Source of the DNA: Acidimicrobiales bacterium
GTDB taxonomy: Bacteria > Actinomycetota > Acidimicrobiia > Acidimicrobiales > SHLQ01
DNA length: 64,000 nt
Assembly (NCBI GenBank): GCA_020629635.1
Contig: JAHDCX010000002.1
Coordinates: 159,726-223,725, forward strand
Direction of reading: 5' to 3'
The position numbers were made by a program, and so were the translations under genes. Below, piece by piece: positions 1-52,878 of the stretch. Position 1 is the first letter of the stretch. The number at the start of each line of letters is the position of its first letter. The notes beneath the pieces were generated by a model. It did not search any database. It had not been told where the DNA came from and saw only the letters and a list, made by a program, of their open reading frames with translations.

Positions 1-607
1 TGACTGTGGCGAGATGGTCGTTGCTCGTCGGCTTCAGCGGCTGTCCTGGGCGGACATCGACGACTTCCTTCCGGCGGAACCATCGAGGAAGTCGGGTTCC
101 GGGGGGCCAGGCGTCTTCGGCGCCCACGACCGACACGGGTACCACCGGGACGTCAGCTTCGATGGCGATCATGGATGCGCCCGGTCGAGGCTGGGCGAAT
201 CCACAATCAGGTACGTCCGAGGACGGAACAATGCGCCCTTCAGGCATCACGCCGACGATTCTGCCGGCACGGAGATGTCCGACCATTTCGGCGATCGCTT
301 CGTCCTTGTTGGAGCTCGAGAACGGTACGCATCCGAGGTTCCTCAGTAGCCACCCGATGGGCCCCGGGCTGAAGAACCGTCGGTTCACCGCGATTCGCGC
401 AGGCCGGCCAAGTGCTCGAAAGAGGATCGGTACCCAGATGACGTCGAAAAGGCTCCGATGCTTGGAGACGTAGACCGCCGGCCCGTCGGGGAGATTGGCG
501 TTGCCGAGGTCGATTCGGACCGTCGTGGTGAGGCGGCTGGCCACGAGAGCGAGCCAGGTGAGCACCGTCCACCCCGTCTCGGCTCTCCGTTGGCTCCGTG
601 TGCCCAT
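1..607 (-). CDS. PlsC-like lysophospholipid acyltransferase (3' end outside window)
   Basis: This is probably a membrane-associated 1-acyl-glycerol-3-phosphate-type acyltransferase, which moves a fatty acyl group onto a lysophospholipid. The reading frame shows the family's HX4D catalytic motif as HRSLFD, then VPFSSS, then a PEG motif in GVMPEGRIV, in the usual order and spacing. The start is taken at the ATG at 607, followed by MGTRSQRRAETG; a GTG codon further in is an alternative. It lies 62 bp downstream of the heliorhodopsin gene on the same strand, so the two are probably cotranscribed. About 202 codons are visible and the C-terminus is cut by the window edge. The family call is good; the exact substrate is unknown. 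Confidence 0.82.
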   Translation of the reverse strand, partial: MGTRSQRRAETGWTVLTWLALVASRLTTTVRIDLGNANLPDGPAVYVSKHRSLFDVIWVPILFRALGRPARIAVNRRFFSPGPIGWLLRNLGCVPFSSSNKDEAIAEMVGHLRAGRIVGVMPEGRIVPSSDVPDCGFAQPRPGASMIAIEADVPVVPVSVVGAEDAWPPGTRLPRWFRRKEVVDVRPGQPLKPTSNDHLATV

Positions 608-669
608 GCCGCCCCAATCCGCTGCCACGCAAGGTAGCGGGCGACCACGACGGAGTCCCAACTGCTCCG

Positions 670-1488
670 CTATTGCGGGATCAGGGTGTTGGCGAAGATC
701 TGCCAGGCGAGGACGCTCTTGGCCACGAAGCTGAGGATGATGTATGTCCGCTCGCCATGCAGGTAATCGGCCCACTTGCCGACTCGTTTGTACTGGAGCC
801 ACTGGTTGAGGGCGAACGTGTTGAAGAAGAAGAAGATCGACACGATGATCCCGTAGACGAATCCGGGCGGACCCTGCGCGCCGTCGACTCGGAGGTTGAA
901 CCAGAGCGGCACGAGGATGGCGAGCCACGGTCCGATCCCGGCGATGCAGCCCATCCAGAACGGCGTGAACCAGATCTTGGCGTCCGGATCGGTCGAGTCG
1001 TTGATCATCTCCATGAGCCAGCCGAAGAGGATCATCGAGATGTTGGCGAACGCGATCGCAATGAGTGCGGCCAGGTCGATGATCCCGGTGGTGGCGCCGA
1101 TCAGCACGATCATCAGCGTCGACGACAACGAGTACTCGACCCAGCGGAAACGGTTGCGACCTCGGCGGAGCTCGTTCTTGTAGGCACCAAAGGCCACGAA
1201 GCCGACGATGAAGTGGAAGAGCGCCGACAACAGCGAGAACTTCGCGACCTGCAGCGCCAACGGGATGCCGAAGAACTCGTTCAGCACGCCGTTGTCGAGC
1301 GGTGTTCCTGGCGGACCGGAGATGTTGAACCCGCCGACCGGGAGTGAGAAGTCGCGGTCTCCGGCGGCGATCATCACGATGCCGGTCACGAGGTGGAGCA
1401 GCCCAGCCCCGATGTTGAGCCGGCGAAGGCGGCTCGCCTGATCGTCGCTGAGCGAAACGGTCTGGCGGGAGAAGTCGATACTGGTCAC
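670..1488 (-). CDS. Heliorhodopsin
   Basis: This is a seven-helix retinal protein of the heliorhodopsin family, 272 aa from the GTG at 1488. The third-helix signature WVEYSLSST carries the expected counterion (Glu118). The seventh helix has SFVAKSVLAWQ with the Schiff-base lysine at Lys257. Both are diagnostic of heliorhodopsins and unlike type-1 pumps, which have DTE/DTD-type motifs. The GTG start is preferred over an upstream in-frame ATG because a GAAGGGA ribosome site sits 5 nt before it and the length then fits the family (about 250-270 aa). Known heliorhodopsins are inverted in the membrane, do not pump ions, and have an unsettled role (sensing or enzyme regulation). The next gene in the same direction is a PlsC-like acyltransferase. 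No carotenoid or retinal biosynthesis gene is visible here. Confidence 0.95.
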   Translation of the reverse strand: MTSIDFSRQTVSLSDDQASRLRRLNIGAGLLHLVTGIVMIAAGDRDFSLPVGGFNISGPPGTPLDNGVLNEFFGIPLALQVAKFSLLSALFHFIVGFVAFGAYKNELRRGRNRFRWVEYSLSSTLMIVLIGATTGIIDLAALIAIAFANISMILFGWLMEMINDSTDPDAKIWFTPFWMGCIAGIGPWLAILVPLWFNLRVDGAQGPPGFVYGIIVSIFFFFNTFALNQWLQYKRVGKWADYLHGERTYIILSFVAKSVLAWQIFANTLIPQ

Positions 1489-1644
1489 AGATGTCCCTTC
1501 GGGTCGCGCCAGCCTCGCAACATGTTCGAGCGAGAAGAGTAGGTGGGTGGGTCGGTTCGCTCCGGCTTCAACGGAGCCCGAGGATGACCGGTCATCCGGC
1601 ACTTTCCGTGGCGCCGACGCAATGTCACAATTCCGAACGTGCGA

Positions 1645-2499
1645 ATGCGTCGGAGAGTGTCACAATCAATCGCCCGTGTGGTGGTCGCTGGCCTCTTCCT
1701 TGCCGTTCTGGGTGGGACGGCGCACGCCCAGGACGAGGGCGGTACGGGAATCCGGATCACCGGGGGTTCGGCGGAGATCACCGTGGCTACAGGGGTGACG
1801 GCCGGCGACATCGTGGTGGGCCGATCGAGCCCGGCACGAGGGCCCGTCTATCGCTGTTCGCTCATCGACGGCGGTCACGGCGACTGGCATCTGATCGTCC
1901 TCGATTGGTCGTCGCTCATGCTGGATCAGCAATACTACCAGGTCTGCCAACCGACCTCACCGGGGCCGCCGCCAATCCTTCGGTTCATCACGTGGGACCC
2001 CGCCGACCCTGACGGAGGGCTCGGGGTCACGGGTCCCGAGATCCGCCAGTGGATCACCGACAACGGGCTCCTCACGCCTCAGCCGATACCGGCCGCCCTC
2101 AGCCCAGCTGGCGAGCAGATCACCGGCCTCGAAACCTGGATCTGGCCGGACGGGCCGGATCGGCTCGCTCCGGTCTACGCGTCTGCCGGCGGCCTGACCG
2201 TCGGCGTGCGGGCTCGGCTCGATGCCGTGACGTTCGACGTCGGGGAGCCCGGTGTCGCGAGGTTCACGTGTCGCTCGTTCAGCGAGTGGACGGACGGCGC
2301 GAGCAACCCGGCGTGCAGTCACACCTACCTGACCGAACCCGACTCCGGCTCGTATCGACTGTTCACCCAGGCGCTGTGGACCTTCGAGTGGGATGACAAC
2401 GGCCTCGGCTGGGCCGACTACGGAATCGCCGAACCGTTTCAGACCCAAGACGTCGTCGTCATGGACCTCGAAGCGGTGATCAGCCGTCGAGGCGGTTGA
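1645..2499 (+). CDS. Secreted protein of unknown function
   Basis: The protein has a clear Sec signal peptide: an arginine-rich start (MRRRVSQS), a hydrophobic core (VVVAGLFLAVLGG) and an AHA-Q cleavage site at about residue 28. The roughly 255-residue mature part is rich in Gly, Asp, Trp and Pro, with four Cys that could form two disulfides. I do not recognise a domain. A GTG at 1639 is an alternative start. It is divergent from the heliorhodopsin gene across about 150 bp and lies 66 bp upstream of a DoxX gene. It is probably exported and soluble; no function is proposed. Confidence 0.7.
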   Translation: MRRRVSQSIARVVVAGLFLAVLGGTAHAQDEGGTGIRITGGSAEITVATGVTAGDIVVGRSSPARGPVYRCSLIDGGHGDWHLIVLDWSSLMLDQQYYQVCQPTSPGPPPILRFITWDPADPDGGLGVTGPEIRQWITDNGLLTPQPIPAALSPAGEQITGLETWIWPDGPDRLAPVYASAGGLTVGVRARLDAVTFDVGEPGVARFTCRSFSEWTDGASNPACSHTYLTEPDSGSYRLFTQALWTFEWDDNGLGWADYGIAEPFQTQDVVVMDLEAVISRRGG

Positions 2500-2565
2500 T
2501 CGCGGACCCGACGGGCAGTCCGACCGACGCTTGCGGCGAGCTGCCAAAGCGAGAACACTTCGGCC

Positions 2566-3075
2566 ATGGGAGACCTGTCGACGGGCGAGTTCGAAGTCGT
2601 GCTCGTCGTCTTTCGCGTGATCTTCGGGTTCGTCTTCGCGCTCCACGGCTGGGGCAAGGTGAAGAACGGGATCGGTGGAACCGCAGGCTGGTTCGACTCG
2701 ATCGGTATGAAGCCGGGTCGGCTCCACGCGATCGCTGCGGCGTCGACCGAGATCGGTACCGGAGTCTTGATGATGCTTGGCTTCCTGACGTCGCTCGCCG
2801 CCGCCGGGATGGTCGGGGTCATGGTGGTTGCCGGCTGGACGGTTCATCGCCACAACGGGTTCATGATCGTGAAGGACGGGTGGGAGTACACGTTCATGGT
2901 GGGGTTGACCGCCGTGCTGCTTGCTGGGCTCGGTCCCGGTGGTCTGTCCGTCGATGCCACACTCGACATCGCCGACGAGCTCAACGGATGGGTCGGGCTC
3001 GCAGTCGCCGTCGGCCTCGGCGTGATAGCCGGCGTCACGCAGATCGTCGTGTTCTACCGGCCACCCGCGCGGTGA
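2566..3075 (+). CDS. DoxX family membrane protein
   Basis: A 169-aa four-helix membrane protein of the DoxX family. The N-terminal helix contains the typical VFRVIFGFVFALHGWGKV stretch. It is followed by a short GWFDSIGMKPG loop, a second helix (AAASTEIGTGVLMMLGF) and two further hydrophobic segments ending in VVFYRPPAR. DoxX proteins are linked to quinone or thiosulfate redox chemistry, but most members, including this one, have no assigned activity. The stop codon overlaps the GTG start of the following PrpD-like gene (GTGA), which indicates translational coupling. Confidence 0.85.
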   Translation: MGDLSTGEFEVVLVVFRVIFGFVFALHGWGKVKNGIGGTAGWFDSIGMKPGRLHAIAAASTEIGTGVLMMLGFLTSLAAAGMVGVMVVAGWTVHRHNGFMIVKDGWEYTFMVGLTAVLLAGLGPGGLSVDATLDIADELNGWVGLAVAVGLGVIAGVTQIVVFYRPPAR

Positions 3076-4487
3076 CTGAGTGTTTGGCCACGCCCGGTCA
3101 TCCTCCGACACGGGTGCTCGACTTCGTTCACGACACGACATTCGACGACCTCCCCGCCGATGTGGTCGACTTCGCCCGCCGCTGTCTCCTCGACCTGCTC
3201 GGAGTCGCGGCCGCCGGGCGCACCACCCGTCTCGCCGACGTGATCATCGGTCACGCGCTCGATCACTTCGCAGTCGGCAAACGGGTTGCGGGGGCTCCGA
3301 TCCTCTTCGACGGCCGCCACGTCGCACCAGCTGGCGCGGCGCTTGCGAACGGCATGATGATCGACTCGATCGATGCGCACGATGGTCACAAGATCACGAA
3401 GGGACACACGGGCTGCCATCAGCTCCCGGCGCTCCTGGCCTTTCATGCCGCCGAAGGTGGCTTGGATGACGCGGAGTTCTTGACGTCGCTCGTGGTCGGT
3501 TACGAGTTCGCCACTCGGGCCGGGGTGGCGCTCCACCAGACGGCGCCCGACTACCACACGTCGGGTGCGTGGGGAGCGGTCGGATGTGCGGCACTCGGAG
3601 CACGCGTGATGGGCCTCGATCACCAGGCCACGTTCCACGCCATGGGAATCGCCGAGTACCACGGCCCACGGAGCCAGATGATGCGAGTGATCGACCATCC
3701 GACGATGTTGAAAGACGGGTCCGGTTGGGGTGCCATGGCCGGAGTCTCGGCGGCTTACCTGGCTCGCGACGGCTTCACCGGCGCGCCGGCGATCACGGTC
3801 AACGACCCGGCGGTCGATGACGTCTGGTCGGATCTGGGTGAACGGTGGGTGATCTTCGACCAGTACTTCAAGCCGTACCCGGTGTGTCGGTGGGCGCAGC
3901 CGGCCGTCGAAGCAGCCCGTGCGCTGGCGATGGAACACCAACTGGAGACGGCGAAGATCGCCGATGTTCGGGTGGCGACATTCCACGAAGCGGCGAGGTT
4001 GGCAACCGCCCAGCCGTCGACGACCGAGGAGGCGCAGTACAGCCTGCCGTTCCCGGTGGCGGCGGTCCTCGCCCGCGGTCGGCTGGGAGCGGCCGAGGTC
4101 GGCACCGATGGTCTGGCGGACGACGAGATTCGGTCGCTTTCGCAGCGGGTGACGATCGTCGAGGACGCCGCGCACAATGCGGCGTTCCCCGCGAACCGAT
4201 GGGCGCGCGTGAGCATCGTGCTCGACGATGGGACCACGTTGACGAGCGCCGACACGGAGCCCCGTGGTGATCCAGAGAACCACTTCACCGACGACGAGAT
4301 GCGCCGCAAGTTCCATGACTTCGCCGACCCGATCCTCGGAACCGATCGCGCCCGTCGGATCGAGTCCCTGGTGGACGGACTCCTCGTCGACGCCACAATC
4401 GACGATCTCGTTCAGTCGATCACGTCACCGATCGTGGACGATGGCTGCGCCGTCGACGAATCCGCGGTCGCCGGGCCGACCGAATGA
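3072..4487 (+). CDS. MmgE/PrpD family protein
   Basis: A 471-aa protein of the MmgE/PrpD (2-methylcitrate dehydratase/aconitate decarboxylase) fold. Supporting features are the N-terminal helical bundle with RRCLLDLLGVAAAG, the ANGMMIDSIDAHDGH segment that lines the family active site, the conserved SGWGAMAG stretch, and the YFKPYPVCRWAQPA motif typical of the family. The length matches the usual 450-480 aa. The GTG start overlaps the DoxX stop by 4 nt. No methylcitrate-cycle genes (prpB, prpC) are nearby, so the substrate cannot be taken as methylcitrate. It probably dehydrates or isomerises a small carboxylic acid in the cytoplasm. Confidence 0.87.
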   Translation: MTECLATPGHPPTRVLDFVHDTTFDDLPADVVDFARRCLLDLLGVAAAGRTTRLADVIIGHALDHFAVGKRVAGAPILFDGRHVAPAGAALANGMMIDSIDAHDGHKITKGHTGCHQLPALLAFHAAEGGLDDAEFLTSLVVGYEFATRAGVALHQTAPDYHTSGAWGAVGCAALGARVMGLDHQATFHAMGIAEYHGPRSQMMRVIDHPTMLKDGSGWGAMAGVSAAYLARDGFTGAPAITVNDPAVDDVWSDLGERWVIFDQYFKPYPVCRWAQPAVEAARALAMEHQLETAKIADVRVATFHEAARLATAQPSTTEEAQYSLPFPVAAVLARGRLGAAEVGTDGLADDEIRSLSQRVTIVEDAAHNAAFPANRWARVSIVLDDGTTLTSADTEPRGDPENHFTDDEMRRKFHDFADPILGTDRARRIESLVDGLLVDATIDDLVQSITSPIVDDGCAVDESAVAGPTE

Positions 4488-40919: not shown

Positions 40920-40942
40920 CCAGCCGGTCGTTGGTTCACAGG

Positions 40943-40988
40943 GAGCGGGTGACGAGAATTGAACTCGCGTGCTCAGCTTGGGAAGCTG
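40943..40988. repeat. attL: distal tRNA-Gly fragment
   Basis: A 46-bp sequence matching the tRNA-Gly gene from its 3' end through the anticodon loop, with two mismatches (at 40960 and 40971). The rest of the tRNA is missing, so it is not a working gene. It marks the end of the original chromosomal tRNA displaced by integration. Confidence 0.88.
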
Positions 40989-41105
40989 CCCGGCCGGGTC
41001 GGCGCGATCGGCCGCTGACCAGCCTTTTCCCTGGTAGGGAGCGGTTTTCGGGAGATGGCGGTCTCACCGTTGAATCCCGCTCGTGACCCCTGTTCCCCGA
41101 TGTTC

Positions 41106-41123
41106 TAGGCACGTTGTAGGCAC
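41106..41123. promoter_or_regulatory. Left arm-type integrase sites
   Basis: Two TAGGCAC heptamers (41106-41112 and 41117-41123) in direct orientation, 11 bp apart, one helical turn. The same doublet in the same orientation occurs at 52727-52744 near the other end of the element. This is the pattern expected for the N-terminal arm-binding domain of a lambda-type integrase. Confidence 0.6.
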
Positions 41124-41145
41124 GAAACGCTGCTAAACCTGTGGG

Positions 41146-41884
41146 GTGGCAGCAAAAAGTTCTGAGGCGATTATTGCGCTGATTGCGCGTTATGTCGATG
41201 AACATGATGGCGAGGTCCCAGGGCGCCATAGGTTCGAGGCCTGGTCGGGAGTCAAGCGTTCGGAGTGGATTGGGCGCCACTGGACGGCCTGGGGAGAGGC
41301 GCTCAGGGCCGCTGGCTTCGAAGCGAACTCACTTCAGGGGGCGATACCCGACGATGATGTGTTGAGGGAGTTGGCCCTCCTGACCCAGCGACTGGGAAAG
41401 TTCCCCACCGACGCTGAACGTCGGATCGAGAAACGAACGAATCCCGCCTTTCCCAGCCACAGCCGAATTCAGGCGCTCGGCCGCACGGCGGAGCAGATGC
41501 GCCGGCTCAACGAAGTACTGCCGTCGGGACACCAAGTTCGCAGATGTCGCAAGGATTCTTGAGGGGACTGAGGACCGCTCGAAGCCGATCTCGGAGAAGG
41601 TCGACGCAGATGAGCCCGAAGCAGACGTCGGGTTCGTATACCTCATGAAGTCGGGCAGGTTCTACAAGATTGGTCGAAGCAACGACTCAGGCCGGAGGCG
41701 CTACGAGATCGGGACAAAGACACCAGAGCCAGTCGAGCTGATTCATGAACTCAGGACCGATGATCCGGTTGGTATCGAACGGTATTGGCACGAAAGATTT
41801 GCCGAGAAGCGCACCAACGGTGAGTGGTTCACGCTGACAAGAAGAGATGTTCATGCCTTCACGAGTCGTGGCGATTCGATGTAG
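41146..41884 (+). pseudogene. GIY-YIG (T5orf172/MUG113-like) nuclease gene, frameshifted
   Basis: The N-terminal frame (41146-41562) encodes homing-endonuclease-associated repeats such as PGRHRFEAWSGVKRSEWIG. The continuation lies in another frame (from about 41535 to 41884), FADVARILEGTEDRSKP, then VGFVYLMKSGRFYKIGRSND and EKRTNGEWFTLTRRDVHAF, the GIY-YIG-like core with its Tyr, Arg and Glu. Joining the frames near 41530 gives one protein of about 245 aa. Either the gene is broken by a single indel or the read has an error. It lies at the left end of the element. Confidence 0.7.
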
Positions 41885-42150: not shown

Positions 42151-45100
42151 TCATCGTCCGATGCGCATGACGTTGGTGTGGTCGATGCCATTGTCGTGGG
42201 TCAGCTTGTTCGCTGTCGACGCCGCGAGCGCTCGGCTGTGCAGGAACGCTTTCGTGACGCTGGGGCCTTGGGTCGGTCCGAGGCCGGCGGTCAGGCCGTG
42301 CGCAGCGTGGTGCTGATCGAGATAGCCGACTGCGTTGTCCCATGCTCGGATGCGATCACCCTTTACAGGCCGCTGACCGATGGCGTCGGTGACTCGCTTG
42401 GGCGGGTTGCGTCGGAGTTGACGCGTGCGGGTGCGTCGGTCGTCGGCGAGTTGCGAGTCGACGTCCTGCAGCCGGGTCTCCGTCTCGGGTCGTCGAGCGT
42501 TGATTCGCCGTGCGTCTGCGAGGTCGTGCCGTAGCCCGTCGAGTCGGCCGGTCTCGTCGTGGACTGTCTTGTCGAGTTGGTCGATGTGGTCGGGCAGCCG
42601 TTCGATCTTCGAGCGGGCGTTGCTGATCTCGGTGTCGTGTCGCCCTCGTCGGAGCGGGCGGTCGTACATATGGAGGACCTCGGTGGCGTCGGCGAGTTCT
42701 GCGACTGCGGCGTCTCGGCGTTCGGTCGCTGTCCCGATCCGGGTTGTAGCAGCGTCGATCGCTGTTGGCAGGTGGCGGAAGTCGATGTCGAGCTGGTGGA
42801 GTGTCTCAGTGAGCTGAGCTTGCTCGCCGAGTAGCTCCTGGAGTTGGTCGGGCGGGAGCGTGCCTGGGCGGTGGCGCTCGGTTCCGGCGAGCTCTGTTTG
42901 GCGAGCGATGGCGGGTCGGTCGATCCAGCTTCGGGCGATGGACTCTGCGAAGACATCGACGGCGGTCTGTTCGCCGGTGGTGGTGATGTAGGCGTCGTTG
43001 TGGTGGCGTCCTCGGGTGAGAGGGACGTAGATGCCTCGGACGTCGCTCGGTCCGTCGAGGACGAGGATGGCCCGATCGACGGTGCGGCCTTGGGCCGCGT
43101 GGCTGGTTTGGGCGTAGCCGAGTTCGACGTGCTCGGTGACGTAGTTGGCGGGGAGGCGGACGGTGCCGCTGGTCCCGGTGGCGGTGATGTCGCCGTTGCG
43201 GTGGAGGGCGGTGATGGTCCATTGGTCGCGGTTGCGCACCACGTGGTGCTGGTCGGTGAGGAGCTGGCGGTGGTTGCGTCGGGTGACGATCTCATCGCCG
43301 ACGAACATCCGGCCGTCGCCAACTCGAAGCTGTCGACCGGTGTCGAGTTCACCTGCGTCGATTCGTCGTTGCTGAGCCGACTCGTTGAGCGCAGCAACGG
43401 TGTCGTTGGTTGATGCGGTCAGTAGGACGGTCTCGCTCGCCTGACGTGCGGCCTCCCAAGCATCGAGTGCTTCTCGTCGCATTCGGGTTGTCGTTCCGCC
43501 GTGAAGTCGGCCGTGAGCGTCGTAGACGCTTGCGACTGCTGGGTCGCCTCGGCGGAGCTGGAGCGATGCGGCTCGTTCCCACTCGTTGGTGAAGCGATGG
43601 ACTTGGTCGAGTTCGATCGCGCCGCAGGTGTCGATCAGGGACTCGAACATGCCGCCTCGGCCGACGGCGGAGAACTGCGTCGGATCGCCGACCAATACGA
43701 TTCGCCACGCACGATCGTCGGCAAGCCTGGCGAGCTGGTCGAGCTTGTCGGTCGAGACCATTCCGGCTTCGTCGACGATCACGGTGGCGCCGCGTGGGAG
43801 GTCGTAGGCGTGGGCAGGCGGGCGGATGGCGGAGTGCTCGAAGAGCAGCTTGTCGATCGTGTCGGCGGCCGTCCCGGTTTCAGCAGCGAGGACCTCGGCC
43901 GCGACGGCTGACGGCGCGACGCCGAACGCGGCTCGGCCTTCGGCGTGGAGTTGATCGATGGCGGGTTTGAGCGCAGTGGTCTTGCCGGTTCCGGCTGGTC
44001 CGACGACGAGCACGAGGTGTGCACCGCCGGCCACGGCAGCGGCGGTTTCAGCTTGGGCGACGGTCAGCTCGACCTCGGCCCGGCTCGGCGCATCCGTCGA
44101 GTTGGTCCACTGCGCAGCGGTCCTGCGCTCGGCCCAAGCCGCAAGTTCATGTTCCTGGGCGAGGATCTCCGGCGTGGTCAACGCCCGGTCGGTCGCTGCC
44201 TCGGAGATGGGGCGGCGGTCGCGGCGCAACGTTGCGCCGTCGGGGACTGGTCTGGAGATGTCGATACAACGACCGGCGATCGCGTCGGTCGTGAGGCGGT
44301 CGAGGAGATCGGAGATCTGCTCGGGGTCGATGCCCAAGTTGGCGGGGAGGACGGCGGCGAGTTCTCGGGTGATCTCCGCCGGTCGCCAGCTCGACTGTTT
44401 CTCGGCCAAGGCGTTGAGCGCCTGGTTGATCATCGAGGACTCGACGTCGGCGGTGAGCGGTCGCGTTCGGCCCGGCCAGATCGCCTCGTCCACGACCGTG
44501 ATCGGCTCCAGCCCGAGGGTTTCGACCTGCTTGCGCCATTGCTCGTGCAGTGCCGCAGCATCGAAGCCATGGAATTTGGCTGGCCGGGAGTCGACAACGG
44601 CCTCGCGTTCGAGCTGCCACCGCTCCCGTGGCGTCGGGTCTCGTTCCATGGTGTCGATGAACCGGTCGAGCTTCTCGTCGAACCGTCGAGCGACATCAGC
44701 GGTGCGAGAGGAGAACTCTTCGAGGACGGTCTTGTCGATGCCGTCGATCTCGGCGATGCCGTTGACAACGGGCTCCCAGTGCACGCCGAGCCGTGCTGTC
44801 AGCTCGGTGCGAAGTGTGGCGTGGTAGATCGCCGACAGGGTTCGCTGGTCGAGCTTGAGGGTGCGGGCATCGAGTGCCAGCCACCGCCCATCGGGTGAGC
44901 GGACACGGTTGGCCACCACGACGTGCGTGTGAAGGTGAGGGTCGAGCGCCCGGGAGGTGTGCTGACGGAACGTCGCCGCAACGATGCCCTCGGCGTCGAC
45001 AACGGCGACCTCGCCGTTGACCCGAAATCGGGTGTGGGCGTGTGTCTCGATCCATCGGACCATCGCCGCCACCGCCGCGTCGTGCGAGGCGAGGGCTTCG

Positions 45101-45414
45101 TGGCGGACGAAGTCGTCGCCGACGGCGAACAGGACCGACACCGACTTGGGAGCGTTGGCTGTGATGTCGAACCCTCGCACCGACGACTCGCCGTAGGCCC
45201 GACCGAGCAGTACGCCGCGAGAGCGAGGGTGGACGCCGGCCATGATGTCGAGGAAGTCCTCGTCACGTACCTCGCGTTGCAGCCCGAGCATGTCGGCGCC
45301 TCGGCCGTGCCATCGACCGGGCGGCTCGTCGGCATCGAGGTAGTACGACGGCAACGCCTCCACGTAGTACGCGCCAGCGTCGACGCCTTTGAGCGTCGTG
45401 ACCCTCGCGGTCAC
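42151..45414 (-). CDS. MobF-family relaxase-helicase (TrwC/TraA-like)
   Basis: A 1087-aa conjugative relaxase. The N-terminal TrwC domain (about 1-300) carries candidate catalytic tyrosines in GAYYVEALPSYYLDAD and the metal-binding triad HLHTH (His160, 162, 164). The following RecD-type helicase has Walker A VVGPAGTGKTTALKP and Walker B ATVIVDEAGMVS, with later motifs GYAQTSHAAQGRTVDRA and YVPLTRGRHHNDAYI. The C-terminal 250 residues are coiled and charged. The GTG at 45414 has GGGAGG 6 nt upstream, and the longer upstream frame is rejected because it runs over the Xis-like gene. It would nick at an oriT within the element and unwind DNA for transfer. Confidence 0.93.
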   Translation of the reverse strand: MTARVTTLKGVDAGAYYVEALPSYYLDADEPPGRWHGRGADMLGLQREVRDEDFLDIMAGVHPRSRGVLLGRAYGESSVRGFDITANAPKSVSVLFAVGDDFVRHEALASHDAAVAAMVRWIETHAHTRFRVNGEVAVVDAEGIVAATFRQHTSRALDPHLHTHVVVANRVRSPDGRWLALDARTLKLDQRTLSAIYHATLRTELTARLGVHWEPVVNGIAEIDGIDKTVLEEFSSRTADVARRFDEKLDRFIDTMERDPTPRERWQLEREAVVDSRPAKFHGFDAAALHEQWRKQVETLGLEPITVVDEAIWPGRTRPLTADVESSMINQALNALAEKQSSWRPAEITRELAAVLPANLGIDPEQISDLLDRLTTDAIAGRCIDISRPVPDGATLRRDRRPISEAATDRALTTPEILAQEHELAAWAERRTAAQWTNSTDAPSRAEVELTVAQAETAAAVAGGAHLVLVVGPAGTGKTTALKPAIDQLHAEGRAAFGVAPSAVAAEVLAAETGTAADTIDKLLFEHSAIRPPAHAYDLPRGATVIVDEAGMVSTDKLDQLARLADDRAWRIVLVGDPTQFSAVGRGGMFESLIDTCGAIELDQVHRFTNEWERAASLQLRRGDPAVASVYDAHGRLHGGTTTRMRREALDAWEAARQASETVLLTASTNDTVAALNESAQQRRIDAGELDTGRQLRVGDGRMFVGDEIVTRRNHRQLLTDQHHVVRNRDQWTITALHRNGDITATGTSGTVRLPANYVTEHVELGYAQTSHAAQGRTVDRAILVLDGPSDVRGIYVPLTRGRHHNDAYITTTGEQTAVDVFAESIARSWIDRPAIARQTELAGTERHRPGTLPPDQLQELLGEQAQLTETLHQLDIDFRHLPTAIDAATTRIGTATERRDAAVAELADATEVLHMYDRPLRRGRHDTEISNARSKIERLPDHIDQLDKTVHDETGRLDGLRHDLADARRINARRPETETRLQDVDSQLADDRRTRTRQLRRNPPKRVTDAIGQRPVKGDRIRAWDNAVGYLDQHHAAHGLTAGLGPTQGPSVTKAFLHSRALAASTANKLTHDNGIDHTNVMRIGR

Positions 45415-45550
45415 GGCCGCCTCCCGGTAGGTGCGGCCGACCTCCCGGCACCACCTGTGCACCCGTCTGTCTCTGATTGGTGAGGAGAGGGGGAGATGGG
45501 ATGGGCTCGTGGCTCGGCGGGTGCCCTGCTGGTGTTCGGTCGAGCGGTGT

Positions 45551-45763
45551 TCATCGTTCGGCGACGCGCTGGGAGTCGAGCCAGGGCTCGATGTCGGCAG
45601 GGTCGAATCGGATGAACTTGCCGATCTTGAGGAACGGGATGCGGCGCTCGGCGACGAGGCGGCGGATGAAGCGATCGGTGACGCCGAGCCAGTCAGCGAG
45701 CTGCTCGATGCTGAGCAGCGAGGGACTGGCCGGGTCGACCTGGGAGGTCTGAGTCGTCGGCAT
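45551..45763 (-). CDS. AlpA/excisionase-like helix-turn-helix protein
   Basis: A 70-aa MerR-like winged helix of the excisionase (HTH_17) family: LLSIEQLADWLGVTDRFIRRLVAERRIPFLKIGKFIRFDPADIEPWL covers the whole domain. Such proteins bend DNA for excision or regulate element genes. It lies between the relaxase and the AbiEi-type gene, so its role could be excision control, relaxase regulation, or both. Confidence 0.88.
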   Translation of the reverse strand: MPTTQTSQVDPASPSLLSIEQLADWLGVTDRFIRRLVAERRIPFLKIGKFIRFDPADIEPWLDSQRVAER

Positions 45764-45819
45764 GTGGCCGATCGTGCGAAACCCACCTCCTCCGCCACCT
45801 ACCGTTTCACCTCACTTTC

Positions 45820-46032: not shown

Positions 46033-46626
46033 ATGAAGGGAGATCGGCAACGACGTCGTCAGGCGCTCTATCGACTCGCCGCCGGCCAGGCCGGATTCTT
46101 CACCGCTGCTCAGGCGATCGATCTCGGCTACTCGTACCAGGCGCAGAAGCACCACGTGGACAATGGCAACTGGGCCCGGGTGGATCGAGGGATCTTCCGG
46201 ATTCCTGAGTGGCCCCGGAGCCTGAATGACTCCTTGGTCCGCTGGGTGTTGTGGTCGAAGTACCGGGCTGTTGTTTCGCACGACTCGGCGGCAGTGGTGC
46301 ACAACCTCGGGCTTCTGAACCCGGCCAAGGTGCATCTCACCGTGCCGTCGGGCTTTCGGATGAGTGACCCCGTGGTCGTCCTGCACCGCCAACTGCTTCC
46401 CGACGCTGATGTGATGCTGCTCGACGGCGTGGTCGTCACGACAGTCGTGCGAACGGTGCTGGACGTGATCGACAGCCAGTTCGACGAAGAACTCGTGGCA
46501 AGTGTTGTTCACGACGCGTTGGACAAAGGGGCGATCAGCGAGCGCCAGCTCCGGCGAAGGCTCGACGAGCTGGACAGCGGTGCGCAGGCTCGAGCCGAGC
46601 GGGTGACTTCGCGAGGGAGCCTGTGA
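46033..46626 (+). CDS. AbiEi-type antitoxin/regulator (no cognate toxin visible)
   Basis: A 197-aa protein with the AbiEi N-terminal winged helix (RQALYRLAAGQAGFFTAAQAIDLGYSYQAQKHHVDNGNWARVDRGIFRI) and the AbiEi core (AVVSHDSAAVVHNLGLLNPAKVHLTVPSG). Type IV antitoxins of this kind are normally followed by an AbiEii nucleotidyltransferase toxin. The next 295 bp hold no such gene, only a short terminator, so this is an orphan regulator or the survivor of a decayed pair. Confidence 0.82.
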   Translation: MKGDRQRRRQALYRLAAGQAGFFTAAQAIDLGYSYQAQKHHVDNGNWARVDRGIFRIPEWPRSLNDSLVRWVLWSKYRAVVSHDSAAVVHNLGLLNPAKVHLTVPSGFRMSDPVVVLHRQLLPDADVMLLDGVVVTTVVRTVLDVIDSQFDEELVASVVHDALDKGAISERQLRRRLDELDSGAQARAERVTSRGSL

Positions 46627-46921: not shown

Positions 46922-47458
46922 TCACGGAGCATCTGTAGCGGTCACTTGGCCCAGTAGTCCGAGCCTCCTGATCTGCTGTCGCCATTGACCGCCCCGTCCG
47001 TACGCCCAAGCGACGGCGTCAGGAACCCAGAGAAGCGGTTCACTCGCCGACGGGAGATGGGTGTACTCGAACTCTGGTCGAGGGGCACTGCCGACCAATT
47101 CGTGGATCGTTGCGCGGTCCTTGTGGTCTTGACCTTGCCTTGAGTCCAGGACGAGGCGCTGGACTCCTTGCTCTCGGAGCAGCGGAATCATTGCACGAAT
47201 GAGCCGTTCCCGCGACAGGGCTTGGTCTCGATCGTCAGCTACGAAGACGTGGGTCTGAACTCCGAGTTGCGACATGGCCGAAAGAAGCGATCGACGCCGG
47301 CGGTCGCCTTCGTCAGCGAAGTGGAGTCTTCGCTGCCCGGAGAGCCGCAAGGCCCGGAGCTCGCTGCGCGTCCTGCCGAGATCACTGGTCGCAACCGTCA
47401 CGGCGCAGATCAAGTACTCGCCCCTGCGATGGGACTCGTCAGCGAATGCATGGACCAT
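46922..47458 (-). CDS. DUF3800-like protein, partner of the STAND gene
   Basis: A 178-aa protein beginning MVHAFADESHRRGEYLICAVTV. The DES triad on the first strand, the second acidic segment (HFADEGDRRRRSLL), VLDSRQGQDHKD and the terminal WVPDAVAWAYGRGG fit the RNase H-like fold of DUF3800. Several DUF3800-type genes accompany defence or mobile loci, but their biochemistry is not established. It follows the STAND gene after only 4 bp and is therefore part of the same transcript. Confidence 0.7.
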   Translation of the reverse strand: MVHAFADESHRRGEYLICAVTVATSDLGRTRSELRALRLSGQRRLHFADEGDRRRRSLLSAMSQLGVQTHVFVADDRDQALSRERLIRAMIPLLREQGVQRLVLDSRQGQDHKDRATIHELVGSAPRPEFEYTHLPSASEPLLWVPDAVAWAYGRGGQWRQQIRRLGLLGQVTATDAP

Positions 47459-47462
47459 GGGG

Positions 47463-50400
47463 CTACCAGTCGCGTCCGTCGGATAGATGCTCGTCCCGTT
47501 CGGTGCTCCATCGAATGCTTTGGACCGCGGACGATTCGATGTCGAGGTAGAAGGCCTCTTCTACGGACCCCCTCGGGAGATTCGCAGCGATCGCAGCTGC
47601 CGTATCGCGCTGGCGAACGTCCTCCGGGTACGGCTCCCCAGGCCTCCCGCTTCGAACGCCAGAAACCGCTGATCGGTGTAGAGCTGAGCGAGCGGCACGT
47701 AGTGTCTCCTCGCCTTGCCTGGATGCTGCGTGTAGGAGCCTGGTCACGAAGTCGACTCGATCCCAGGTGACGTTCTTGGGAGCGTCGGCGACGATCCGAG
47801 TCACGGTCTCGATTTCCTCGAGCCTCCCCGAGGTCACGTACTCGTCGAGGACGTCCAGGGCCGCCCCTTCAACACTGCTGGCGACGTGGAAGTACAACTC
47901 GGGACGACGCCATGAATCTGGGGCCTCGGCGGTCCAGTCGCAGATCTCGCGGAGAATCGCCACTTGCTCCTCATAGCCGGCGAACGAGATGCTCGCGGGG
48001 TCGAAAGGCAGAGCGTCATAGCGATCAGGAGTGTCGGGCGACTCGGCGAGTTCGACACGACGCTGGAGCAACGCAACGACCTCTGAGGCTTGGCCTGCCT
48101 TCGAGATGTTCTCGAGAGCATTGGTGATCCTGTGATCCTCGATGGTCGGACAGGTTGTGAGCTGAGCAAAGACCCGCTCCCTCAGGGGCCCCGGCACGTC
48201 GTCCCATCCCAACTGTCCGTACGTTCCGAAGCCGCGCATGACCTCTGACGCAACGGCAGCGCTGTCCTCGAACCGGATCTCCGCGAGCAGTTCGATCGCA
48301 GCAGCGGCGCTACTTGAAGCGAGAGCCTGTAGGCCCTGAGCGATCGACGTACGGACTTGAGGGTTCGGATGGCGGGCCAGCCGGGCGAGAAGTGGCGCCT
48401 CGCCCTCGAGGAGCCGAGTGCGGCCGCCGCGAATCCAGCCGAAGGAGTGCGCTACTTCTTCGTCGAGACCAGCTTCGACAAGGAGATGTGCCATCTCCAT
48501 CGCAATCGGCTGACCGGCGCGTGCGAGCGTCGCCAACGCGACTGCACCGGTCCGACGAAGTGCTGACCCGGGGTCGGCAGCGAGCTGGTGGCACATCAGA
48601 ATTCCGATCTGCGGCTCTTGTTCGACGAGTTCAGCAATGAGCGGATCGGGGTTCGAGCTCGGCCCCTCGCCTGAGAAGGCGGCGGCATCCGCCGCCAGCC
48701 GTTCGGTGAGAAGCCCCAGGATCTCCGAAGGTGGTCGCCTGGTGCGAAGAACATCCACGAACTCTGTCAGGCTTCGCTGACGTCGCTCAGCTGCCTCCCG
48801 ATAGTCCTCCGCGGCATCGTGGTCGTCGGTCAGGTGACCCCATCCGTCGTGAACGTAGAGCGCCAGCTGCTGCACGTCGTCGTCTGGTATTGCGGCAACT
48901 GCGGCTCTCGCCGCAGCGCCGGTCGTCGTCGTGGAGTGCTCTGCGTGCCACCGAAGAGCGTGTCGGATCGCCAGCTTCACGGTTGGGTCAATCGCGGGAT
49001 CCAAGGCGATCTCACCCAGCCGTTCGATTGTCCGGACGAACTGTGGCGTCCAGCCGTCCCGCTCATCTTGGGAGACTTGTCGGCCGAAGAATCCGTGCGG
49101 ATAGCGGACGCCAGCCTCGATCGCCCTGATCCCCCGCGCAGCACGGTAGGGGTCGAGGCTCCGGGCCTCTGCTATCGCCAGGTCGATGACGCGCTCGCGA
49201 ATGGACACAACAACGTCAGCGCGGATGAGGTACGGGCGCATCGTGAACTGGTGGCCGCTGAACGACGTGTCGTACCCCTCGGTGGCGAGAAGCTTCTCGG
49301 CGACGTCGAACGGTGACCATGGACCGGGTTGAGCCGACGCAAGCCAACGTTCAATCGCGTCAACGACCGCTTCGAGGTAGGGGAGGGGCTTTCGGTCGTC
49401 GTAGCCCGCGAGGTCTTGCAGGACTCTGAGCGGATGGTCGGAGAACTGGTTTGGTTGTCGCTCGTCGGATCGAGCCAGCTCCCAGAGAAGGTTCAGCACG
49501 GCCGGGAGGTGGTCAAAGTGGTAGGACGCGTTGCGGAGGATGCCGGGCAACTCCTCCATCACTGTCTGAGCGGTTGGTGCGTAGATGGAGTTCAGCAGAC
49601 CGTCTGCCACCTCGAGTTCTTGGGTCGGATGGGTCATGGCCCAGCCGACCAGCTCGATTGCCCGTTCAGGTTGGTAATACGCGACCCGTCGGGCCGTCTT
49701 GAGGAGTTGGATGCGACCGCGGATCCCCGCATCCCGGAAGCGCTCGAAGAAGGGCTCCCAGGCTGCTTCCGACCGAGTCCCCCCAGAGGAAGTCTGCCAA
49801 TCAAGGCGAGCAATGTTGACGAGCAGGTTGTCGAGCGCTGCGCCCTGGCTGGCCCCGAGTACACGGTGTACGTAGCCACTATCGAGTCCACTGCGCTCGT
49901 CGACTGCAGCGCGAGACAAGACAACGTCTCCCAGAAGGTCTGGGACGACACGAATGGCGTTGCCGCGACGAAGGAGGACGCCGGAGTCCTCTAGGCCGCG
50001 TATGTGGGGAAGTGCCCGATCAAAGGCCACCCCGGTCAATTCTTCGAGTGCTGAGCGGAACTCAGGTTGGTCAGCTCGAAATGGCTGGAGCGCGGAAATC
50101 GCATCGAGAACGGCTTGCCGAAGTGCGGCGTCGCCCGCCGCCCATCCGCTCGCGATGGCATCCTGGAAAGCGGCAAGTACGACTTCTCGAATGGACTCGT
50201 GGCTACTGATCTCATCCTGGCGGAGGCGACCGTCCCGGATGAGAACCCCGCCCAGGACAGCGACCAGAGGACAGTCTGTTGAGACGGCGGCGAGCCTCCG
50301 GCCAACCTCGTCGGGCTGTGCGTCTCCGAGTGCCTCGAGCGCTAGCTCCCGGGCCTCGTCAGGGCTCAGGTCCGAGAGTTTCCAGGTCGGCAAGTCGATG

Positions 50401-51539
50401 TGGTGGGCGCTGACGAGCGAGAGGTCCCTGGCGAGCGTGGTCATCCCGTGCGGACGCAGCGCGAGAAGGATCTTCGCTCCCGGTCGCCGCCGGGCAACTC
50501 CGGTCAGCAGGGCACCGATGTCCTCTCGCTCGTGTGCGTCGTCTACCACGATGACGAGTCCTGTCTGACTGGGTAGCGTCTCGAAGTGTTCGGGCCGGAG
50601 TCCGGTCGAGCGCTCCAGGAACCGGACCTCCACCCGCTCCGATTCCAGAGAGCGGGCGACCTCTCGGAGCAAGCGACTCTTGCCCAGGCCTCCCCGGCCG
50701 ATCAGCAGTCCGATCCTGTCGGTGTCCGTAGTCGCAAACTCCTGAATCGAGGCCAGGACGGACTGGCGCCCGACGAGCGACCACGAGTGTTTGAACAGGT
50801 CGTTGGACTCGAGGTGGCGGTATGCCTCGTCGGTGGTGAGCCACGGCCCCGGCTCAGCAATTCCCAGGAACGGTTGACGATGTCCGGGGAAGTAGGTGTC
50901 GACAAGACGAACGGCGCGCTCAACAGGCAGCTCATGGCGGATCTTCCGAGCCAGGTCTTCCGAATCCCACAGGGCCCAACCCCGGTGGTTGCCGATCTCT
51001 TCGCGGGCACCCGGGCTCGCGACTCGCGAGAGCATCAGCACGTTCTTGTCCGCATCCACGCCGACGGCCTCGACGGCCGTACGAACGTCCGCTGGGCCGA
51101 ACTGCTGGTGACGCTTGCATTGGAAGGTCCAACGACTCTGGTCCGGCCGGGTGATCAACCCGTCTATGCCGTCCTGGGTGTGACCTCGGCTCCCATAGAG
51201 GGATACGTCAGCTTCAGGATGAAGAAGTTGCATGAGATCGGCGCAGAAGCGCTCGAACACATCAGGGTGGAGCTCGTGCAACGGAAGGGTTGAAACAAGT
51301 GGCCGGACGGCGGGGTCGATTTCAGCGAGGGTGTGGCCGGCAGCATTCAACCAAGCGCCCTCGTCTGCACCGAAAAGCAGCGCCAGCGTGTGGATGTTCT
51401 CTCGGCTTGGTGTGGATCGCCCCTGTTCCCACCGGCTGACCGTCTGTTGGCCGACGACGCCCCCGAGCTGGGCAGCGAGATCTGCCTGGGTCCACCCATT
51501 CGCCTTGCGCGCTTTGCGAAGCAGGTCTCCAATGGACAT
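47463..51539 (-). CDS. XRE-HTH + Mrr-like nuclease + STAND ATPase + helical-repeat protein
   Basis: A 1358-aa multidomain protein. Residues 1-65 are an XRE HTH (KARKANGWTQADLAAQLG, QQTVSRWEQGRSTPSRENI). Residues about 88-215 form an Mrr-type restriction-endonuclease fold with the active-site pattern GIDGLI (Asp126) and FQCKR (Gln140, Lys142). Residues about 250-470 are a STAND/AAA-type ATPase: Walker A GRGGLGKSRLL (281-291) and Walker B LVIVVDDAH (328-336). The remaining about 850 residues are alpha-helical, HEAT/ARM-like (for instance EAPLLARLARHPNPQVRTSIAQGLQALASSS). Nuclease-STAND-repeat proteins of the Avs type sense phage proteins with the C-terminal repeats, oligomerise and cut DNA. Here an extra DNA-binding domain precedes the nuclease. 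The function is inferred from architecture. Confidence 0.85.
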   Translation of the reverse strand: MSIGDLLRKARKANGWTQADLAAQLGGVVGQQTVSRWEQGRSTPSRENIHTLALLFGADEGAWLNAAGHTLAEIDPAVRPLVSTLPLHELHPDVFERFCADLMQLLHPEADVSLYGSRGHTQDGIDGLITRPDQSRWTFQCKRHQQFGPADVRTAVEAVGVDADKNVLMLSRVASPGAREEIGNHRGWALWDSEDLARKIRHELPVERAVRLVDTYFPGHRQPFLGIAEPGPWLTTDEAYRHLESNDLFKHSWSLVGRQSVLASIQEFATTDTDRIGLLIGRGGLGKSRLLREVARSLESERVEVRFLERSTGLRPEHFETLPSQTGLVIVVDDAHEREDIGALLTGVARRRPGAKILLALRPHGMTTLARDLSLVSAHHIDLPTWKLSDLSPDEARELALEALGDAQPDEVGRRLAAVSTDCPLVAVLGGVLIRDGRLRQDEISSHESIREVVLAAFQDAIASGWAAGDAALRQAVLDAISALQPFRADQPEFRSALEELTGVAFDRALPHIRGLEDSGVLLRRGNAIRVVPDLLGDVVLSRAAVDERSGLDSGYVHRVLGASQGAALDNLLVNIARLDWQTSSGGTRSEAAWEPFFERFRDAGIRGRIQLLKTARRVAYYQPERAIELVGWAMTHPTQELEVADGLLNSIYAPTAQTVMEELPGILRNASYHFDHLPAVLNLLWELARSDERQPNQFSDHPLRVLQDLAGYDDRKPLPYLEAVVDAIERWLASAQPGPWSPFDVAEKLLATEGYDTSFSGHQFTMRPYLIRADVVVSIRERVIDLAIAEARSLDPYRAARGIRAIEAGVRYPHGFFGRQVSQDERDGWTPQFVRTIERLGEIALDPAIDPTVKLAIRHALRWHAEHSTTTTGAAARAAVAAIPDDDVQQLALYVHDGWGHLTDDHDAAEDYREAAERRQRSLTEFVDVLRTRRPPSEILGLLTERLAADAAAFSGEGPSSNPDPLIAELVEQEPQIGILMCHQLAADPGSALRRTGAVALATLARAGQPIAMEMAHLLVEAGLDEEVAHSFGWIRGGRTRLLEGEAPLLARLARHPNPQVRTSIAQGLQALASSSAAAAIELLAEIRFEDSAAVASEVMRGFGTYGQLGWDDVPGPLRERVFAQLTTCPTIEDHRITNALENISKAGQASEVVALLQRRVELAESPDTPDRYDALPFDPASISFAGYEEQVAILREICDWTAEAPDSWRRPELYFHVASSVEGAALDVLDEYVTSGRLEEIETVTRIVADAPKNVTWDRVDFVTRLLHAASRQGEETLRAARSALHRSAVSGVRSGRPGEPYPEDVRQRDTAAAIAANLPRGSVEEAFYLDIESSAVQSIRWSTERDEHLSDGRDW

Positions 51540-51546
51540 ACTCTCA

Positions 51547-51569
51547 CCGTACGCACTGCATGCGTACGG
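51547..51569. promoter_or_regulatory. Operator-like perfect inverted repeat before the STAND gene
   Basis: CCGTACGCA (51547-51555) and TGCGTACGG (51561-51569) are perfect reverse complements around 5 nt, 7 bp upstream of the ATG at 51539. This is the expected size and place for a homodimeric XRE site, so the protein may repress its own gene through its N-terminal HTH. Confidence 0.65.
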
Positions 51570-51600: not shown

Positions 51601-52701
51601 TCAGTCATGGAGTTCCCCGTTCATCCGTAGCTCCATCGCATCGGCGATCTCAGCATCGCGGCGGGCGGAGGCCTTGAGGTAGCGGAGGGATGCATCGGAG
51701 GAAGCGTGGCCCATCCGGGCCATGATTTCGCGCAACGAGGCGCCGGCCGTCGCCGCAGAAGTCCCCGCATGGTGGCGGAGGTCGTGGAAGCGGATCGACT
51801 CGTCGAGGCCGGCTGCCTTCAGCGCCTTCTTCCAGTACGGAGCGAAGTAACGATTGACCAGCGGGCTGTCCTTCACCGACGTGAACACAAGAGCGTCGGG
51901 GTCGTTGCCGACATGCTTCTCGATGTGTGCGGCGAGCATCTCGGCCACCCCGGTCGGGATGACCACTGTTCGGTGAGCGGCCGCCGACTTCGGCGGGCCG
52001 AGCGTCGGGCCTTGGCCCTTCACGAACGACAACGCTTGGTCGACCCGGAGCGAGCGGTCGTCGGTGTCGACGTGCCTTCGGGTGAGGCCGGTCAGTTCGC
52101 CGTAGCGCAGGCCGGACGTCGCACCGACCCACACGAGGGCTCGGAACCGAGGGTGAATGGCTCCGGCGATTCGCTCGATGTCGTCCCAGTCGAGCATGGG
52201 ACGCTCGATCGATCGCTCGACCGCAGCGCCCTTGATGTGGACCGGGTTCGTTCGGAGCAGGCCGTCGTCGACGGCGGTGTTGAGCATCGTGCGGAACAGT
52301 CGGTAGACCTTCGCCACGGTGTTGGGGTGAAGGCCCGACTTCGACAATCGGCCGTGCCACGCCCGAACTGCCGACGGTGTGATCTTGCGCAGCTCGACGG
52401 TCTCGAACTCGTCGAGTATGTGGGCGAGCTGCGAGGCGTAGGTGTCCCGAGTGCGCGGGCGCAGGTCACGAGCCTCCAGCCATCGCTCGGCAAACACGCC
52501 GAACCGCTCCCGTCCACTCGATGGGTCGACGTGGCGACCCGACAGCAGGTCGGTCTCCATCGTCGCCAGCCATGCTCGGGCGTCGGCCTTCGTGGCGAAC
52601 GTCGTGTCGGCCGGAACCTGCTTGCCGAGGTGCCAGTAGCGCGCCTGATAGCGCCCAGACGGGAGCTTCCGGATGTTGCCAAAGGGCCTGCTACTCGCCA
52701 C
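51601..52701 (-). CDS. int: Tyrosine recombinase/integrase
   Basis: A 366-aa phage-type integrase: an N-terminal arm-binding region with RYQARYWHLGK, a SAM-like core-binding domain (about 65-160), and a catalytic domain with the full set of residues: Arg199 (SGLRYGEL), Lys238 (GPPKSAAAHR), His306 and Arg309 (FHDLRHHAGT), His332 (RMGHASSD), and Tyr341 (SLRYLKAS). It lies 106 bp from the 3' end of the tRNA-Gly gene, the standard position for tRNA-targeting integrases. The GTG start overlaps the region of arm-type sites. Confidence 0.96.
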   Translation of the reverse strand: MASSRPFGNIRKLPSGRYQARYWHLGKQVPADTTFATKADARAWLATMETDLLSGRHVDPSSGRERFGVFAERWLEARDLRPRTRDTYASQLAHILDEFETVELRKITPSAVRAWHGRLSKSGLHPNTVAKVYRLFRTMLNTAVDDGLLRTNPVHIKGAAVERSIERPMLDWDDIERIAGAIHPRFRALVWVGATSGLRYGELTGLTRRHVDTDDRSLRVDQALSFVKGQGPTLGPPKSAAAHRTVVIPTGVAEMLAAHIEKHVGNDPDALVFTSVKDSPLVNRYFAPYWKKALKAAGLDESIRFHDLRHHAGTSAATAGASLREIMARMGHASSDASLRYLKASARRDAEIADAMELRMNGELHD

Positions 52702-52703
52702 TC

Positions 52704-52744
52704 GTGCCTACTGATCGCCGTTGTTCTAGGCACACTGTAGGCAC
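52704..52744. promoter_or_regulatory. Right arm-type integrase sites and int upstream region
   Basis: TAGGCAC occurs at 52727-52733 and 52738-52744 (11-bp spacing), and inverted as GTGCCTA at 52704-52710. The doublet repeats the arrangement at 41106-41123. The inverted copy lies directly against the int start codon, so integrase binding there could also repress int. Confidence 0.6.
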
Positions 52745-52806
52745 GGAGCCTGGAGACGATCCAGCGTATGAAGCCCGAGACCCCTGATAAACAAGGCTTT
52801 CGGAGA

Positions 52807-52852
52807 GAGCGGGTGACGAGAATCGAACTCGCGTTCTCAGCTTGGGAAGCTG
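52807..52852. repeat. attR within tRNA-Gly
   Basis: The 46-bp counterpart of the left repeat (40943-40988). It covers the acceptor 3' strand, T-arm, variable region and 3' half of the anticodon arm of the intact tRNA gene. Strand exchange probably takes place in this identity block. Confidence 0.88.
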
Positions 52853-52878
52853 ATGTTCTACCATTGAACTACACCCGC
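52808..52878 (-). tRNA. tRNA-Gly (anticodon CCC)
   Basis: The minus strand folds into a full cloverleaf of 71 nt: acceptor GCGGGTG with CACCCGC, D-arm GTTC/GAAC, anticodon arm TCAGC-TTCCCAA-GCTGA with anticodon CCC, and T-arm GCGAG-TTCGATT-CTCGT. CCA is not encoded. Its 3' part serves as the attachment site of the integrated element, whose DNA restores the full tRNA sequence. Confidence 0.93.

Follow-up and report, generated by a model that had tools for sequence, protein, structure and literature searches.

A probable single-protein, Avs-like immune receptor with a fused XRE-type HTH domain and an operator-like site at its own promoter

Among the closest known systems to the locus described here are the Avs proteins, of which Avs1-Avs4 have nuclease effectors and respond to conserved proteins of phages, among them terminase and portal (PMC12931631), and the STAND proteins of P4-like satellite hotspots, which have Mrr_cat or other N-terminal effectors and C-terminal repeats (PMC9122126). 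Our analysis concerns a 64,000-nucleotide stretch of DNA from an Acidimicrobiales bacterium (the window), in which an initial annotation had proposed a two-gene defence module encoded by minus-strand open reading frames of 1358 and 178 residues, 4 bp apart. Both reading frames are as claimed. The larger gene and its domains are the following:

47463..51539, minus strand: HTH-Mrr-STAND-repeat protein (P0001), 1358 residues, intact, ATG start; supported by Pfam domains, full-length homologues and an AlphaFold2 model
51369..51521, minus strand: XRE HTH domain, residues 7-57; Pfam HTH_3, E 5e-13; present in 10 of 11 aligned homologues
50946..51278, minus strand: Mrr-type nuclease domain, residues 88-198 (E96, D126, Q140-x-K142); Pfam Mrr_cat, E 3e-9; invariant residues
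49767..50846, minus strand: STAND NTPase module, approximately residues 232-591 (Walker A K287, Walker B D333-D334); Pfam nSTAND_NTPase5; VIA-align Z of about 14-15 to NB-ARC, Apaf-1 and EfAvs5
47466..49766, minus strand: C-terminal helical (HEAT-like) repeats, approximately residues 592-1358, presumed sensor; all-helical model up to residue 1200, weak HEAT matches, fastest-diverging part

The Pfam matches to HTH_3, Mrr_cat and nSTAND_NTPase5 (the last spanning residues 260-368, E 3e-9) all exceed the gathering score, and a weak HEAT match lies near residue 1050. The HTH, nuclease signature, Walker A/B ATPase and helical repeats that had been proposed from the letters alone agree with these matches and with the residues that are invariant across 11 aligned homologues, namely E96, D126, Q140, K142, the Walker A glycines, K287 and D333-D334. 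On the strength of the Pfam match and the invariant residues, the Mrr-type domain is assigned as a nuclease. It is also the best conserved domain of the large protein: relatives are 43-50% identical to the window protein in this domain, whereas identity drops to about 29% for distant members in the STAND module and to some 20% in the repeats. The faster divergence of the C-terminal repeats is the pattern expected of a sensor under changing selection. One homologue, from Xanthobacter, has lost the HTH domain while retaining the nuclease and STAND domains. Three traits of type 4 Avs proteins are present in the large protein: an N-terminal Mrr/PD-(D/E)XK nuclease with an intact active site, a STAND NTPase with Walker A and B motifs, and a long C-terminal repeat sensor (in the model, up to residue 1200).

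Structure prediction, which had been suggested as a check on the large protein, recovers the STAND fold and places Avs proteins at the top of the Foldseek matches. The AlphaFold2 model, built on 9 sequences, covers residues 1-1200 with a mean pLDDT of 80.5 and a pTM of 0.57. Its top PDB matches in Foldseek are Avs4 (8dgf, E 1.3e-8), Avs3 (8dgc) and EfAvs5 (9jap); these alignments follow domain order and superpose poorly overall (TM about 0.15), and for Avs4 the agreement is one of domain order and local structure only, with an rmsd of 35 A and 11% identity. In VIA-align the model matches the NB-ARC domain of tomato NRC1 with a Z of 15.0 (5.4 A over 274 residues), EfAvs5 with a Z of 14.7 and Apaf-1 with a Z of 14.2, scores that make the predicted STAND fold secure. 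Avs4 is not among the best 50 VIA-align matches listed for the model, which says nothing on the fold.

Homologues of the large protein were collected by tblastn and pattern scans and are full-length or nearly so. With identities of 26-40%, full-length relatives span Actinobacteria, Proteobacteria and one acidobacterial MAG, and they include copies on plasmids and in a prophage. The closest are from Nocardioides (40% identity) and the acidobacterial MAG (39%, cut by the contig end); others are found on one Rhizobium and one Xanthobacter plasmid, and further homologues come from a Geobacter MAG, two other proteobacterial MAGs, and Rhodospirillaceae and Acetobacteraceae MAGs (26-30%). A homologue is also encoded by a second actinobacterium of the window organism's class (L055, G668:C97). 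There, on the minus strand, the HTH (4194-4376) and the remainder of the protein (269-4261) lie in two overlapping frames, as would result from a sequencing error, a programmed frameshift or a split gene. In 345 genomes of the class, a match at E 1e-20 is found only in the window's own genome and in that of L055, which indicates that the family is rare and patchy. A search of 18 further genomes of the host's family did not find the full-length gene, scans with single sequences and with clade-specific viral sets returned no additional homologues, a scan of a phage collection found none, and the DNA of the prophage homologue (L020) had no match in E. coli genomes. In one contig (L021, G329:C54; 988-2262) a frame begins like an IS630-type transposase and runs on into the final 250 residues of a relative (37% identity), probably what is left of a gene that an insertion sequence has interrupted.

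The initial annotation had left room for a match to an already described Avs subtype. None emerged: the Avs models of PADLOC-DB 2.0.0, run against 11 members, gave zero full-length matches and one weak Avs3b fragment (E 0.012). A literature search of partial coverage likewise found no description of an HTH-Mrr-STAND receptor. The family appears as a rare branch of Mrr-STAND receptors that is spread over distant phyla and missed by the PADLOC models.

The surroundings of the relatives support a role as defence cargo, as they often include integrases, Gabija, Wadjet or toxin-antitoxin genes. The Rhizobium homologue lies directly downstream of GajA, GajB and a HEPN/RES gene, another (L013) is a few kb away from Wadjet JetA-JetB, a third (L011) is near an AbiEii-like gene, and the prophage homologue is located downstream of phage tail genes. 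The Nocardioides homologue adjoins an integrase and a tRNA-Ala, with the same gene order as in the window. In the Rhizobium etli plasmid pRetIE4771e (L002, 1009-11208), GajA, GajB, HEPN/RES, HTH-Mrr-STAND and a weakly TIR-like protein follow one another in a compact defence island.

In the window, the gene lies in an element of 11.9 kb that has a direct repeat of tRNA-Gly sequence at its two ends (54 bp, 91% identical). The mobile element that had been claimed is confirmed by this repeat together with a tyrosine integrase and a TrwC-type relaxase:

52799..52852, unstranded: att copy within the intact tRNA-Gly (52807-52878), 54-bp direct repeat
40935..40988, unstranded: second att copy at the left end of the element, 54-bp repeat, 91% identical
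51601..52701, minus strand: tyrosine integrase of the element, adjoining the tRNA; Pfam Phage_integrase, E 7e-23
42151..45798, minus strand: TrwC-type relaxase, whose real start codon probably lies downstream of the beginning of this frame; Pfam TrwC, E 3e-75

An exact empty integration site was sought and not obtained; two congeners have the tRNA-Gly and the same right-hand gene, and their left flank differs. Just inside the att copies is a second direct repeat, 81% identical (TTCTAGGCAC..TGTAGGCACG; 41077-41124 and 52698-52745), possibly the arm sites of the integrase. Near the left att copy, a GIY-YIG-type gene (GFVYLMKSGRFYKIGRS...) appears to be split over two plus-strand frames (41146-41562 and 41561-41884) and is probably decayed. 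The element also contains a plus-strand homologue of an AbiEi-type antitoxin (46033-46626; PADLOC E 1.6e-65), with no evident AbiEii toxin gene adjoining it.

Of particular interest is an inverted repeat upstream of the large gene, which the initial annotation did not mention:

51547..51569, unstranded: operator-like inverted repeat CCGTACGCA-CTGCA-TGCGTACGG, perfect 9+9, 7 bp upstream of the start codon
51551-51565, unstranded: core 15-mer ACGCA-N5-TGCGT, part of the 51547-51569 repeat

No second copy with two or fewer mismatches exists in the window. In the 4.45-Mb genome, TACGCA-N5-TGCGTA occurs exactly at one place, the promoter of the large gene itself, and the few sites with one mismatch in the core are no more frequent than in a reversed control. 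A site of the form ACNCA-N5-TGNGT is found in 8 of the 11 HTH-bearing loci; it begins 19-56 bases upstream of the start codon and lies over the predicted promoter. The 8 loci with the site make up about three related groups and are not eight independent observations. To correct for the post-hoc choice of pattern, 2816 palindromic gapped patterns were scored in 70-nt upstream windows of the 11 loci. AC.CA-N5-TG.GT was the best of them with 8 of 11 loci, and the maximum reached by any pattern was 3 under the controls (500 dinucleotide shuffles and 500 sets of windows drawn at random from these loci). Across 220 kb, 11 of the 12 exact ACNCA-N5-TGNGT sites are these upstream ones.

The half-sites differ symmetrically between groups of loci, as expected if a dimer contacts both halves. 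The Nocardioides site reads ACGCA-N5-TGCGT, the deltaproteobacterial-type loci (L012-L014) have ACACA-N5-TGTGT, and the alphaproteobacterial loci (L002, L015 and L016) each have two sites of the ACACA or ACTCA type. The site has one mismatch in L011 and two in L055, a locus that had no part in shaping the pattern, and the prophage homologue has none. Upstream of the relatives without an HTH (L003 and L017) the palindrome is absent. In L013 and L014 the palindrome covers the -10 element of a 12/12 consensus promoter (TTGACA-N17-TATAAT) and of an 11/12 promoter (TTGACA-N17-TAAAAT), respectively; in the Nocardioides locus (L010) it occupies the spacer between the -35 and -10 elements of a 10/12 promoter (TTGACC-N17-TATGAT). 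The -35 and -10 elements of the window itself are weak. The predicted -10 sits close to the start codon, just 6-14 bases or so ahead of it, in the window and in L002, L010, L011, L015 and L016. If these positions are true, the mRNAs would be leaderless or nearly so; the cI mRNA that phage lambda makes from PRM is of this (nearly) leaderless kind.

A palindrome that is present at the promoter of most HTH-bearing relatives and absent in those without an HTH suggests that the fused HTH represses its own gene, which is the simplest and most likely reading of the comparison. The best sequence matches of the HTH include the 434 repressor, P22 C2 and HipB, and the trait looked for as a mark of self-repressing XRE-type regulators, a conserved palindrome over the own promoter, is present. 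The self-regulation that had been proposed therefore gains support from a conserved operator-like site. Of the two roles offered for the HTH, repression of the operon is strongly favoured, and no evidence was found that it steers the nuclease.

Taken together, the observations make it probable that the large protein is a one-protein, Avs-like immune receptor whose HTH binds a palindrome at its own promoter, carried as cargo of the element with the small neighbour as a passenger. The proposal of a nuclease-STAND-repeat protein of the Avs kind is backed by the domain calls, the predicted structure and the defence-island contexts. By its architecture the protein should work like Avs4, and for its activity we infer phage sensing, oligomerization, DNA cleavage and repression through the HTH. 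As cargo of what appears to be an integrative mobilisable element, the gene would set its own level in a new host: the XRE HTH would bind ACNCA-N5-TGNGT, the site recognized by comparison, and keep expression low, which would prevent over-production of a dangerous nuclease. The C-terminal repeats, by analogy with Avs, would recognize some molecule of the invader, for which a conserved protein of the phage is the most likely candidate. The STAND module would then use ATP and oligomerize, bringing together and activating the Mrr-type nuclease, and the activated nuclease would cut DNA and stop the infection, a response in which the cell itself would probably be sacrificed. An outstanding question for NLR-like proteins is how cells keep the amount of such lethal receptors within safe bounds. 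In the present family the control element is covalently built into the receptor and has a defined and conserved 15-bp site, which makes the relation of dose to autoimmunity accessible to point mutations.

A bolder form of this proposal, which we consider unlikely, is that the receptor is parked on its own promoter and held inactive through the HTH, acting as repressor and sentinel at once, and that recognition of an invader both frees the nuclease complex and derepresses the gene. If true, detection and amplification would be one step carried out by one protein.

The self-repressed single receptor has also to be weighed against the two-gene module of the initial annotation, in which the two proteins act jointly and the small one is a second effector or regulator:

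46922..47458, minus strand: 178-residue DUF3800-like protein of RNase H2 fold (P0002), co-directional neighbour; model pLDDT 91.7, RNase H2 Z 11.7

DUF3800 proteins have been reported to have an RNase H fold (PMC10910872), and the RNase H-like fold and acidic active site looked for as traits of this family are present in the model of the small protein, which aligns to RNase H2 with an rmsd of 2.6 A over 145 residues. It contains the DES motif, and in its family D7, E8 and D147 are invariant and position 105 is D or E, the acidic positions of RNase H2. The protein itself has no match to the Pfam model PF12686 (DUF3800), although 3 of 9 family members do (best E 1.3e-4). It is a probable nuclease of the DUF3800 kind with an RNase H2 fold. 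The retained acidic residues, together with a shared strand and a gap of 4 bp that point to a single transcript, speak for joint action, and the two genes are probably co-transcribed in the window. At other loci, a weakly TIR-like protein begins 6 bp after the Rhizobium homologue and a small gene overlaps the end of the homologue in L015, which suggests that an accessory slot may exist.

The comparison of neighbours across loci, however, speaks against a dedicated DUF3800 partner. No other large-gene locus examined has a DUF3800-like gene after the large gene; what follows is weakly TIR-like (Rhizobium), a HicB, an HTH-peptidase, a small membrane protein, or nothing close. Conversely, relatives of the small protein are found on 93 actinobacterial plasmid records, mainly of Rhodococcus, Mycobacterium and Clavibacter, and in mycobacteriophage Gaia. 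None of these 93 records carries the large gene, the plasmids with the large gene being others, and the neighbours that were examined are ParA-like, relaxase or unrelated genes with no link to STAND proteins. A link to relaxases was also considered and rejected, since a relaxase adjoins the gene only at L048 and most loci are without one. An Rfam search for a DUF3800-associated RNA motif near the gene found the tRNA alone. As no other locus examined has both genes, the pair is local to the window element. The earlier expectation of conservation outside the element therefore holds for the large protein, which is conserved in distant bacteria, and fails for the pair. The two-gene module is accordingly quite improbable, and the small protein is probably a passenger or an exchangeable accessory, which would be co-transcribed with the core system and stand outside it.

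Still less probable is a STAND transcription regulator of the MalT/AfsR kind, in which the HTH would be the output, controlling other genes, and the nuclease would be vestigial. Such regulators combine a DNA-binding domain, a STAND NTPase and a repeat sensor in one chain, a layout shared by the HTH, STAND and repeats of the large protein, and the HTH and its cognate site are conserved. The nuclease, however, has an invariant active site and is conserved more strongly than any other domain, the operator core occurs exactly only at the gene's own promoter, and the Xanthobacter homologue dispenses with the HTH rather than with the nuclease and STAND domains; the combination expected of such a regulator, no enzymatic effector together with targets beyond itself, is not what the locus presents. 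We give the least weight to a type IV restriction enzyme, in which the HTH would bind or read DNA entering the cell, modified DNA for example, and direct the Mrr nuclease to it, while the STAND module would serve as a switch or as a translocator driven by ATP. In favour of this reading, restriction enzymes that act on modified DNA typically contain Mrr_cat, and HTH or winged-helix domains fused to them can recognize DNA. Against it, STAND modules are switches and not motors, the specific conserved site of the HTH at its own promoter points to a regulatory role, and a link to methylation is not seen in most loci.

The self-repressed Avs-like receptor can be compared with several known systems. 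With MalT/AfsR-type regulators, the model shares a match to the MalT-complex entry 8bob (Z 13.1 in VIA-align) and differs in its intact nuclease and in having its own promoter as the sole exact site in the genome. The small protein resembles DUF3800 proteins in its DES motif and RNase H-like fold (PMC10910872), but lacks a match of its own to the Pfam model and belongs to a short, plasmid-borne actinobacterial branch. XRE self-repressors, such as phage CI/C2-like proteins and HipB-like antitoxins, also combine an XRE HTH with a palindrome over their own promoter; they are separate small proteins, whereas here the HTH is fused to a nuclease-STAND receptor of 1300 residues. The STAND proteins of P4-like satellites share the STAND NTPase, the C-terminal repeats, the Mrr_cat effector and carriage on a mobile element, and the portion of that source available to us makes no mention of an HTH or of autoregulation, in contrast to the protein described here (PMC9122126). 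Avs4 (AVAST type 4; PDB 8dgf) has an Mrr-type nuclease, a STAND NTPase and long helical repeats in one chain, as does the large protein. Unlike Avs4, the latter has an N-terminal XRE HTH with a cognate operator-like site, its repeats are HEAT-like, and identity in the structural alignment is only about 11%, with no full-length match to the PADLOC Avs models. The large protein would thus be Avs-like in mechanism, while sequence models do not place it in Avs4. What appears to be new with respect to the described Avs proteins is a putative repressor fused at the front, with a matching site conserved at the promoter in distant bacteria.
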